Below, piece after piece: positions 13,949 through 16,233 of a stretch of DNA of 64,000 nt. Within the stretch, counting starts at the first letter, position 1; every line of letters starts with the position of its first letter. Location: positions 1,302,001 through 1,366,000 of the forward strand of contig NZ_CP054141.1 in NCBI RefSeq assembly GCF_013284035.1. Reading direction: 5' to 3'. Source of the stretch: Flavobacterium sp. M31R6. GTDB lineage: Bacteria; Bacteroidota; Bacteroidia; Flavobacteriales; Flavobacteriaceae. The position numbers and the translations under genes were made by a program. A model generated the notes under the pieces. That model worked only from the letters and a program-made list of their open reading frames with translations. It was not told where the DNA came from and searched no databases.

Positions 13949-13961
13949 GTGCGATTATTTA

Positions 13962-14038
13962 AACACGGATTTCACAGATTTACACAGATTATTATCTAAC
14001 CTAATGATATATCTGTGCTAATCTGTGAAATCTGTGTT
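13962..14038. repeat. 28-bp imperfect inverted repeat element (gene-free)
   Basis: The arms at 13962-13989 and 14011-14038 match at 25 of 28 positions when one is inverted, with a 21-base loop. Each arm is three copies of a nine-to-ten-base word (AACACGGAT, TTCACAGAT, TTACACAGAT). The same word pattern, with CGAAT in place of CAGAT, brackets the GxxExxY gene at 14845-15415. It lies between the methyltransferase gene and the helicase gene on the minus strand. Confidence 0.85.
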
Positions 14039-14065
14039 GAATTTTTTAACTAGCAATAATCTCAT

Positions 14066-14830
14066 TTATTTAAAACAAACAGGAATGATTTCGCCTTTTG
14101 CCAAACAATATCTTTCTACCAATTCGGGCGCTATTTTATTGGTGTAATCTTCCTCAATAACAGTAAAACCAATGCTCCTTAGTTTGTCAAAATAATCGCG
14201 GCCATAAATACGTACGTGGTCGTATTGTCCAAATATTTTGGCACGTTCTTTTTGGTCAGTAATCGTATCGTCAGCAAAGGTTACGGCTCTATTCAAATCT
14301 TGTGGAATTTGCAAAATAGCCATTCCGCCCGGTTTCAAAACGCGGTACAATTCCTGCATCGCTTTGGTGTCGTCTGGGATGTGTTCCAATACGTGGTTGC
14401 AGAGAATTACATCATATTGATTGTCTTCGAAAGGCAAATTGCAAATGTCTGCCTTTACATCCGCCAAGGGCGAAAACAAATCGGTTGTCGTATAGTCTAA
14501 ATTTTTTTGCTTGCGGAACATTTTGTAAAAAGCCTGTTCCGGTGCAAAATGCAATACTTTCTTTGGAGCGGTAAAAAAATCGGTTTGCTCGTTTAGGTAT
14601 AGCCACAGTAAACGGTGTCTCTCCAACGAAAGTGTACTTGGCGAAAGCACATTATTGCGTTGCGTTTCGTACCCGTAAGGTAAGAACGATTTGAAGCTTT
14701 TCCCGTCAATTGGATCGGTATAAGTGTCTCCTTTTAATGAAAAAGCGATAAAAGGGCGTGCTACATAACTTAAACGAATAAGAATGGGACGCGGGATTGT
14801 ATTGAGTATAAGTTTAAACACAGATTTCAT
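14066..14830 (-). CDS. Class I SAM-dependent methyltransferase
   Basis: A 254-residue protein. The first 85 residues contain a hydrophobic, basic segment. From about 85 a Methyltransf_11-type domain follows, with KVLHFAPEQAFYKMF as a modified motif I, KADICNLPFEDNQYDVILCNHVLEHIPDD in parts as motifs II-III, and ELYRVLKPGGMAILQIP as the post-motif. Motif I has no glycine-rich loop (HFAPEQ instead of ExGxGxG), common in a Bacteroidetes subgroup related to glycosylation or cell-envelope loci. Substrate unknown. Confidence 0.82.
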   Translation of the reverse strand: MKSVFKLILNTIPRPILIRLSYVARPFIAFSLKGDTYTDPIDGKSFKSFLPYGYETQRNNVLSPSTLSLERHRLLWLYLNEQTDFFTAPKKVLHFAPEQAFYKMFRKQKNLDYTTTDLFSPLADVKADICNLPFEDNQYDVILCNHVLEHIPDDTKAMQELYRVLKPGGMAILQIPQDLNRAVTFADDTITDQKERAKIFGQYDHVRIYGRDYFDKLRSIGFTVIEEDYTNKIAPELVERYCLAKGEIIPVCFK

Positions 14831-14844
14831 TTGATAAAAATTTA

Positions 14845-14903
14845 AACACGAATTTCACGAATTTACACGAATGAATGGTGTGTAAAATAAGAATTTCACG
14901 AAT
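14845..14903. repeat. 28-bp repeat arm 3' of the GxxExxY gene, with a partial second unit
   Basis: 14845-14872 is made of the words AACACGAAT, TTCACGAAT, TTACACGAAT. A shorter GAATTTCACGAAT follows at 14891-14903. It is the inverted partner of the copies at 15324-15351 and 15388-15415 on the other side of the gene. Confidence 0.8.
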
Positions 14904-14915
14904 ATTATGTTATGG

Positions 14916-15290
14916 TTAAAGAATTATTCTTTTGTATTTTAGGCTGTCTTCTCCAAAATTAACTAGTAATCCTAGTCTGTTTTGTGATGCGGCAAGATAG
15001 TTTAATGTTTGTTTTATTTCACTACTGGAAAGTTGTTGAATTGCTTTTATTTCTAAAATAATTTCATCAAAAATTACAAAATCGGCAAAATAATAAGTTG
15101 GCAAGATGATTTCTTTATATTCAATATTGAATTTTGATTCTCTTGAATAGGGAATATTATTTTTCTTAAACTCGTATTCTAAAGCATCTCCATAAACCTT
15201 TTCACTATGTCCTTTTCCAAGAATTTTATGAACCTCCATACAAAGACCAACAATTGTATAAGCTTCTTCTTTTAAATATAAATCGTGCAT
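14916..15290 (-). CDS. GxxExxY family protein (PDDEXK nuclease-like)
   Basis: A 124-residue cytoplasmic protein with the naming motif G27-H-S-E30-K-V-Y33. A later stretch ADFVIFDEIILEIKA gives D70, E80 and K82 in the spacing of a PD-(D/E)xK nuclease core, and E39 can complete it. The family is widespread in Bacteroidetes and I know of no established function; nuclease fold is inference from the motif. The gene is bracketed by inverted 28-bp repeats (14845-14872 on one side, 15324-15351 and 15388-15415 on the other), which suggests gene and repeats form one mobile or self-copying unit. It sits between the map gene and a methyltransferase gene, all on the minus strand. Confidence 0.85.
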   Translation of the reverse strand: MHDLYLKEEAYTIVGLCMEVHKILGKGHSEKVYGDALEYEFKKNNIPYSRESKFNIEYKEIILPTYYFADFVIFDEIILEIKAIQQLSSSEIKQTLNYLAASQNRLGLLVNFGEDSLKYKRIIL

Positions 15291-15298
15291 CTTTTGAT

Positions 15299-15415
15299 GT
15301 TAGTGAAATTTAATAGATTTAGAATTTGTGCCAATTCGTGAAATTAGTGTTTTTCAATTTAGTTAGTGAAATTTAGATAGATTTTGAATTCGTGCTAATT
15401 AGTGAAATTCGTGTT
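15299..15415. repeat. Two tandem repeat units 5' of the GxxExxY gene
   Basis: Two direct copies of about 55 bases start near 15299 (TTAGTGAAATTTAATAGATT) and near 15363 (TTAGTGAAATTTAGATAGAT). Each ends in a 28-base block (15324-15351 and 15388-15415), the inverse of the AACACGAAT-TTCACGAAT-TTACACGAAT block on the other side of the gene. The second unit reaches the first base of the map stop codon. Confidence 0.8.
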
Positions 15416-16233
15416 TATAATACTAAAGGCACTTTTCTAAATTCATCTTCTTCATTGCTCACGATTCCCAATTCTTTATAGATATAGTAGAAAGTCGATA
15501 AAATTTCAGGTTTTCCATCGATGATGGCAACGTCGTGTTCAAAATGTGCAGATGGTTTTCCGTCGGCAGTGGTGATAGTCCAACCGTCTTTATGCTGTTT
15601 GATGTTTTTGGTTCCCATATTAATCATCGGTTCAATTGCAACGACCATTCCTTCGATAAAAAGTTTGCCTCGACCTCTTTTTCCGTAATTGGGCATTTCG
15701 GGATCTTCGTGCATTTTTTGTCCCACACCGTGACCCACTAGTTCTCGAACCACACCATAACCATGTGCTTCGGTATATTTCTGGATCGCATTTCCAACAT
15801 CTTCTACACGGTTACCCAAACGCAATTCGCGGATTCCTACGTATAAAGATTCTTTGGTAACTTGAAGTAGTTTTTTGGTTTCGGGAGCAACATCGCCAAT
15901 TTCAAAAGAGTAGGCGTGGTCTCCGTGAAATCCGTTTTTGAAAGCACCGCAATCAACCGAAATTACATCGCCACTTTCTAATGGTTTGTTGTTCGGAATT
16001 CCGTGTACCACTTGAGAATTTGGACTCATGCACAATGAATTCGGGAATCCATAAAGTCCAAGGAAACTTGGTACTGCACCATGATCCTTGATAAATTCTT
16101 CGGCTCTTTTGTCTAGATATAATGTTGTAACTCCTTCTTTTATTTCAGAAGCTATCATTCCTAATGTTTTTGATACGATCAACGCACTTTCGCGCATTAA
16201 TTCTATTTCCTCACGGGTTTTTTGAATAATCAT
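15415..16233 (-). CDS. map: Methionine aminopeptidase, type I
   Basis: A 272-residue cytoplasmic metallopeptidase that removes the initiator Met from new proteins. All five metal ligands of the family are visible: Asp in SVDCGAFKNGFHGDH (two Asp), His in GHGVGQKMHEDP, Glu in VVAIEPMIN, and Glu in SAHFEHDVAI. The substrate His is in SQVVHGIPN. Length is slightly above the 250-265 common for type Ia; the extra lies at the C-terminus (EEDEFRKVPLVL). It is a single gene, with a TACTTTTG element at 16254-16261. Confidence 0.95.
   Translation of the reverse strand: MIIQKTREEIELMRESALIVSKTLGMIASEIKEGVTTLYLDKRAEEFIKDHGAVPSFLGLYGFPNSLCMSPNSQVVHGIPNNKPLESGDVISVDCGAFKNGFHGDHAYSFEIGDVAPETKKLLQVTKESLYVGIRELRLGNRVEDVGNAIQKYTEAHGYGVVRELVGHGVGQKMHEDPEMPNYGKRGRGKLFIEGMVVAIEPMINMGTKNIKQHKDGWTITTADGKPSAHFEHDVAIIDGKPEILSTFYYIYKELGIVSNEEDEFRKVPLVL

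Follow-up and report, generated by a model that had tools for sequence, protein, structure and literature searches.

A GxxExxY nuclease-like gene flanked by palindromic word arrays: a candidate minimal mobile element in Flavobacterium

Palindromes with a dedicated gene

In REPtrons, small intergenic palindromes flank one dedicated gene and are also scattered without it; the available part of the source proposes that the scattered palindromes are non-autonomous copies (PMC3733652). The Coxiella 23S IVS, as described in the accessible sections of PMC4990558, is 428 nt in length and has one ORF and terminal inverted repeats that pair into a stem of 28 bp, and it is excised by RNase III. In the Nostoc trnL intron, the P6b stem consists of degenerate 7-nt repeats (TDNGATT and NNTGAGT), whose origin is called unknown in the accessible text of PMC4476775. 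GxxExxY proteins are abundant, yet they are rarely named in the open-access literature. PMC8934634 names them, and its available sections draw no link to repeats; the available extract of the RepRanger table (PMC12306157) has rows for two Flavobacterium genomes. In open-access full text, which leaves most subscription papers and all preprints outside, no description of GxxExxY/PDDEXK_3 genes paired with word arrays was found.

I analyzed a window (the whole stretch of 64,000 nucleotides of Flavobacterium DNA) in which a GxxExxY gene is surrounded by inverted repeats. As in REPtrons, the palindromes flank the gene and also occur elsewhere without it. However, RAYTs are HUH tyrosine transposases, whereas the GxxExxY enzyme has a PD-(D/E)XK fold, and REPs are GTAG-tagged, whereas the arms around the GxxExxY gene are arrays of ~7-nt words. 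Instead of the GTAG/CGTC of REPtrons, the arm and hairpin ends as read begin with AACAC, GACAC, or ACCRC. Thus, the analogy to RAYTs and REPs drawn in a first-pass annotation of this DNA holds for the arrangement of the parts but not for the enzyme. With the 23S rRNA IVS, the element shares a layout in which a single small ORF is enclosed by terminal inverted repeats. In contrast, the IVS lies in rRNA and its S23/four-helix-bundle ORF belongs to a different family, while the window element lies between two protein genes and encodes a nuclease fold. The Nostoc P6b stems, as far as the accessible text describes them, resemble the GxxExxY arms in having degenerate short words of two classes, with class switching between relatives. 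Their period is 7, however, and no protein is linked to them there, which places them closer to the four-helix-bundle arrays described at the end of this paper. Unlike the PD-(D/E)XK nucleases of the Cas4, lambda-exonuclease, and RecB types, the GxxExxY protein is a stand-alone protein of ~125 residues, and the neighbors of the window gene do not resemble CRISPR or recombination partners.

The GxxExxY gene and the repeats of the window

The gene lies between two genes on the same strand (Table 1), which I take to encode a methionine aminopeptidase-like protein (map) and a methyltransferase-like protein (MT). Its product matches TIGR04256 (GxxExxY) with an E-value of 3.7e-38 and 130.5 bits, above the curated cut-off of 35, and PF13366 (PDDEXK_3; E 1.6e-33) was the sole family in a Pfam scan. 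An alignment of 53 sequences shows no variation at G27, E30, Y33, D70, or E80 and at least 90% conservation of K82. The motif and the PDDEXK-like core that had been read by eye from the 124-residue sequence were thus borne out. The fold and the conserved D...E-x-K core place the protein in the PD-(D/E)XK superfamily as a putative nuclease. No solved structure matched it in sequence; in a Foldseek list for the fold, DNA nucleases were closest and tRNA-splicing endonucleases came further down. There were 2563 matches to the window protein, the closest named homologues being from Flavobacterium, and in a profile search at least 7996 of 7997 scored candidates matched. Of 36 AT-clade pairs, 10 have pS below 0.6, and in these the dN/dS ratio was 0.04-0.17 (dS mostly around 1), which indicates that the genes of this clade are under purifying selection. 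Carriage as phage or plasmid cargo was rejected: with the L018 protein as a query, 0 of 50,697 phage and 8 of 72,556 plasmid records matched. In viral contigs, no relative of the window protein was confirmed.

Table 1. Positions of the gene, its borders, and the repeats in the window
Feature	Positions	Strand	Description
Gene-free hairpin	13959..14041	.	Arms 13959-13989 and 14011-14041, 21-nt loop
MT-like gene	14066..14830	-	Border of the polymorphic site opposite to map
Arm downstream of the gene	14843..14872	+	Three CACGAAT words facing the gene
GxxExxY (TIGR04256 / PDDEXK_3) gene	14916..15290	-	124 aa, AT-word clade
Inner inverse copy	15324..15349	-	CACTAAT / CACGAAT / CACAAAT
Outer arm upstream of the gene	15388..15417	-	Inverse CACGAAT / CACTAAT / CACGAAT; shares positions with the stop codon of map
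map-like gene	15415..16233	-	One border of the polymorphic site

The best inverted repeat between the two flanks of the gene scores 45. The maximum among 2000 dinucleotide-shuffled sequences was 31; none reached the observed score, and a chance origin of the arms was ruled out. The words fit CACNRAT, reading CACGAATTTCACGAATTTACACGAAT at 14847-14872 and, in inverse orientation, CACGAATTTCACTAATTAGCACGAAT at 15388-15413 and CACTAATTTCACGAATTGGCACAAAT at 15324-15349. The 28-nt block reported beside the gene (AACACGAAT, TTCACGAAT, and TTACACGAAT) is present at 14845-14872. It has two inverse copies, one at 15388-15417 (30 nt, 90% complementary) and a weaker one at 15324-15372 (49 nt, 73%). The two copies had also been assigned to tandem 55-base units, but these were not recovered, since the copies start 64 nt apart (15324 and 15388) and Tandem Repeats Finder detected no array. 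The gene-free hairpin exists as well and is slightly longer than first described (87% complementary). Its words are CAGAT three times on the right and CGGAT/CAGAT/CAGAT on the left, so that the outermost left word departs from the CAGAT assigned to the whole hairpin. Throughout the 64-kb window, runs of three or more CRCNRAT/CRCNRAG words were found only in the three gene-side arms and in the two arms of the hairpin. No known RNA family of the Rfam type matched any of six loci, including the window gene with its arms (L005).

Word arrays at other GxxExxY genes and away from them

The window genome (4.46 Mb) has five GxxExxY genes. Four of them lie within clear inverted repeats, each of which uses a different word (CACGAAT in the window, CACAGATTAAAAAGATT, ATTAAG, and TATAAG), while the fifth has an internal stop and weak inverted repeats only. 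Is this common? A GxxExxY gene is present in 32 of 149 genomes of the family, and 55 loci were read, of which 48 with an intact motif were kept and 7 were dropped (L002 is a duplicate). At 21 of 48 loci (20 of 47 without the duplicate), the flanks contain inverted repeats that score above the 99th percentile of shuffled flank pairs (31), whereas none of 30 RBFA control loci scores above 31 (maximum 30). The enrichment proposed as a check in the first-pass annotation is therefore present, with 27 of the 48 loci below the threshold, and at L272, L282, and L285 no array was recognizable around the gene. With shorter flanks, 17 of 47 loci exceed the threshold; the corresponding RBFA control was set aside because its shuffled threshold (212) was inflated. 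A wider set of loci, named by record title, spans Bacteroidota, cyanobacteria, archaea, acidobacteria, planctomycetes, and further groups. These are the best 80 of 587 confirmed loci, 4 of which were dropped; because many lie on contigs of MAGs, the organism names may be wrong in some cases. Flank repeats exceed a stricter shuffled threshold of their own (43) at 16 of 74 of these named loci. The mean periodicity of the flanks peaks at 9-10 nt in the 47 family loci; the 76 named loci share this peak and have a further one at 21-22 nt. In 123 GxxExxY loci there are 817 words, compared with 18 in the 30 RBFA loci. Words facing the gene form the majority in 91 loci and words facing away in 17, with a tie in 15 (604 words toward the gene and 213 away). 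In sequence, each arm is thus a series of ~7-nt words that recur every 8-12 nt and mostly face the gene.

Word class tracks protein clade. By word class, the 123 loci comprise 87 AG, 21 AT, 14 other, and one mixed locus. All 87 AG loci encode a GPG-type protein, and the 12 GKG, GSG, and GYG proteins all have AT words; the remaining GPG proteins (104 in total) have AT (7), other (9), or mixed (1) words, and the seven GNG proteins have AT (2) or other (5) words. On the protein tree (126 columns, 58 of 120 inner forks open), AG/AT changes only 4 times over 108 loci, compared with 15-21 times in 300 shuffles. The named loci are biased to AG words because the patterns used to collect them came from GPG-type proteins. 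The Flavobacteriaceae-level set, which is free of this bias, requires 2 changes over 37 loci (shuffles 7-16). Word composition correlates with protein distance (Mantel r 0.45 for 102 loci, 0.28 within AG, and 0.48 within AT), and none of 2000 permutations reached the observed value overall or within either class. Vertical descent of the element together with its gene could yield part of this signal. In the first-pass annotation, CGAAT and CAGAT had been read as two specificities. This was abandoned because both words occur within single hairpins and single genomes; the clear specificity-like split is that between words ending in AT and in AG, which matches a deep split of the protein tree. Three GNG-type loci (L057, L058, and L063) have another style of word (GAACTATGATT / GAACCATGATT) outside both classes.

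The gap between map and MT offers a better control than the RBFA loci, since RBFA flanks are mostly coding. The MT gene was found in 143 genomes of the family, and the gap was read in 90 and readable in 89; the known carriers G069 and G125 are outside this survey, and the locus L215, which has no map gene, was dropped. By similarity to the window gene, 9 gaps contain a GxxExxY gene, 2 a decayed one, and 78 none. Three or more words were found in all 9 gene-bearing gaps and in 6 of the 78 gene-less gaps, although the latter are often very short or contain other genes (41 of the gaps are 50 nt or less). Within the genus, MT was detected in 80 of 81 genomes. Among the best-scoring 30 of these 80 loci there are 9 AT elements, 8 AG elements, an AG element with an internally deleted gene, 8 gaps of only 0-30 nt, and 4 other cases. 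The 8 short gaps are the empty alleles that had been proposed as a check. The proteins of the AT elements are 69-100% identical to that of the window and those of the AG elements 34-39%. Thus, the site is empty, AT, or AG in relatives, and at this one position a switch of enzyme clade goes along with a switch of words. No target-site duplication, such as would mark a MITE or an IS with a DDE transposase, was recognized on comparison by eye of the empty and filled sites. On average, the two arms of one element fit each other better than mispaired arms do, both in AT (9 elements; mean 45.2 versus 34.0; 2 of 5000 permutations) and in AG (12 elements; 31.1 versus 25.2; 23 of 5000), and cross-class pairs score lowest (16-18); L357 and L205 were lost to the motif filter in these arm analyses. 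Row by row, however, the own partner is the highest-scoring arm for no more than 3 of the 9 AT and 2 of the 12 AG elements. An average advantage of this kind would result if the two arms changed in concert, but relatedness contributes to it.

Arrays also occur away from the gene. In the window genome, TTCACGAATTNACACGAAT and TTCACAGATTNACACAGAT occur once each as exact sequences, while the relaxed AT pair CACNRATTTCACNRATT has 21 matches (0 for the reversed pattern). Of these, 17 are more than 600 bp from any GxxExxY gene and fall at 13 sites, namely the window hairpin and 12 others that were read. Hairpins scoring at least 25 with word arms exist at 8 of the 12; L340 and L341 are weak hairpins, L344 has a single AT arm, and at L347 the hairpin is masked by a stronger unrelated repeat, with its words facing inward. 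The gene-free hairpins lie mainly between long open frames, with frames of 79 and 82 codons overlapping L341 and the AG site L350. Folded as RNA, the window hairpin has an energy of -36.4 kcal/mol (z -9.6), and four hairpins gave z values of -6.9 to -10.0. Terminators or ordinary REPs were rejected as an identity for them: no long T-run directly follows the stem on the strand folded in these four, and hairpins were found between convergent (L339 and L346) as well as codirectional genes. Another gene-free hairpin of the same genome (L010:2142-2200) has TTTCAGG / TTTCAAG words at a shorter spacing.

Across the 149 genomes, arrays more than 1.5 kb from any GxxExxY gene were counted as gene-free. 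All 7 genomes with gene-free AG arrays and 11 of 16 with gene-free AT arrays have a GxxExxY gene, compared with 32 of 149 overall (p 1.2e-5 and 1.9e-5, respectively). The AT pattern has 126 matches in 16 genomes and its reversed control 17 in 7 (G134 5, G068 4, and G132 4); the reversed AG control has 1 match. With gene-side matches included, at least four AT matches were found in 6 of 6 genomes with a GKG-type or near gene and in 4 of the 143 others. One of the six, G135, is counted by identity only (58-59% to the AT clade versus 37%), its gene being absent from the tree. Some genomes have arrays without a gene of the matching clade: G023 has nine AT matches and no GxxExxY gene, G084 has 18 AT matches and an AG-clade gene as its only GxxExxY gene, and the window genome has four AG sites and no AG-clade gene. 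These arrays could reflect lost genes or cross-action. At one orthologous site the hairpin is present in none of 12 relatives (two long inserts were read at their ends only), at a second in 3 of 12, one of them partial, and at two further sites also in the relative G178. Gene-free hairpins thus appear to come and go at orthologous sites. The word number of the arms also differs between relatives (L336 versus L439). At L353 (G084:C23:344900-345900), an AT hairpin is nested in an AG palindrome (by eye; the inner arms score 20), as though one element had entered another. Regular tandem arrays of AT pairs exist at G069:C1:131693-132573 (~212-220 nt apart) and G134:C23:210639-211028 (~93 nt apart).

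A putative element and the alternatives

Four observations now strongly support the conjecture of the first-pass annotation that gene and repeats are linked: the repeat enrichment, the word class on the protein tree, the concentration of gene-free arrays in carrier genomes, and the swapping at one site. Probably (about 0.6), the gene and its arms form one palindromic element of ~400-600 bp, with the PD-(D/E)XK nuclease as its dedicated enzyme. The match between word type and nuclease type across species suggests that the nuclease and its palindromes make up a very small mobile DNA element of a sort that is little known. The protein may bind the word array as a hairpin, a cruciform, or a single strand, and since there is about one word per helical turn, it may do so as an oligomer along one face of the DNA. 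It would then cut near the end of the element, and host repair would copy, move, or homogenize the element. Hairpins without a gene would be non-autonomous copies of it, comparable to the REPs that accompany RAYTs.

Alternatively, the element may be an IVS-like RNA element whose arms form a transcript stem cut by RNase III, so that the insert is tolerated between cotranscribed genes. Its protein would be an RNA-binding or RNA-cutting passenger, and spread would occur by reverse transcription or recombination. The position between codirectional genes, the strong RNA folding, the shared layout of the Coxiella IVS (PMC4990558, accessible sections), and the analogous arrays around four-helix-bundle genes of the IVS-protein family fit this explanation. 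However, the fold is nearest to DNA nucleases and the gene-free hairpins also lie between convergent genes, and for these reasons DNA is favored over RNA as the probable substrate. RNA folding alone does not account for the word class tracking the protein clade either, and an RNA element is unlikely. It is still less likely that the arrays are operators or other regulatory sites of the GxxExxY protein, serving autoregulation or defense, with the gene-free arrays as further sites or decoys and without any movement. The agreement of word class and clade and the purifying selection on the gene would be expected, but the presence or absence of the whole element at one site, the nested hairpin, and the hairpins missing from orthologous sites look like turnover. 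Least likely, the gene is passive cargo of palindromic arrays that grow or homogenize by replication slippage or template switching, which suits the varying word number and the arrays of the gene-less G023 but predicts neither the word class following the protein clade nor the joint swap of protein and words at the map-MT site.

If a mobile element with a dedicated nuclease is the correct reading, a broader proposal can be made tentatively: such elements may form a widespread class of mobile palindromes of minimal size. A PD-(D/E)XK nuclease of ~125 residues would read words on its own hairpin arms, spaced at about one per helical turn, and enzyme and words would co-diversify into a clade-specific DNA code, with the four-helix-bundle (IVS-protein) elements and their 7-nt code as a parallel second class. 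Such a second class, if real, would explain where the 23S IVSs and the heptad stems of the Nostoc trnL intron came from. The link of GxxExxY proteins to arrays offers a testable substrate and a natural set of enzyme/word pairs, and possibly a shared explanation for many unexplained intergenic hairpins.

Palindromic word arrays also surround genes for the four-helix-bundle 23S IVS protein (PF05635/TIGR02436; L012, L014, L015, and L126-L155). At 8 of 33 of these loci (one gene being counted twice, as L012 and L130), the inverted repeats of the flanks score above the shuffled threshold. The period is sharply 7 nt, with lags 7, 14, and 21 at about 5% each compared with 0.2-1.7% elsewhere (32 loci). 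At a spacing of 7 nt, TGAG recurs in 4 and GATT in 2 of the 33 loci (L135, L014, and others), and such heptads were found in none of the 30 RBFA and 48 GxxExxY loci. Some of them resemble the NNTGAGT and TDNGATT repeats of the Nostoc trnL P6b stem, as given in the accessible text of PMC4476775.
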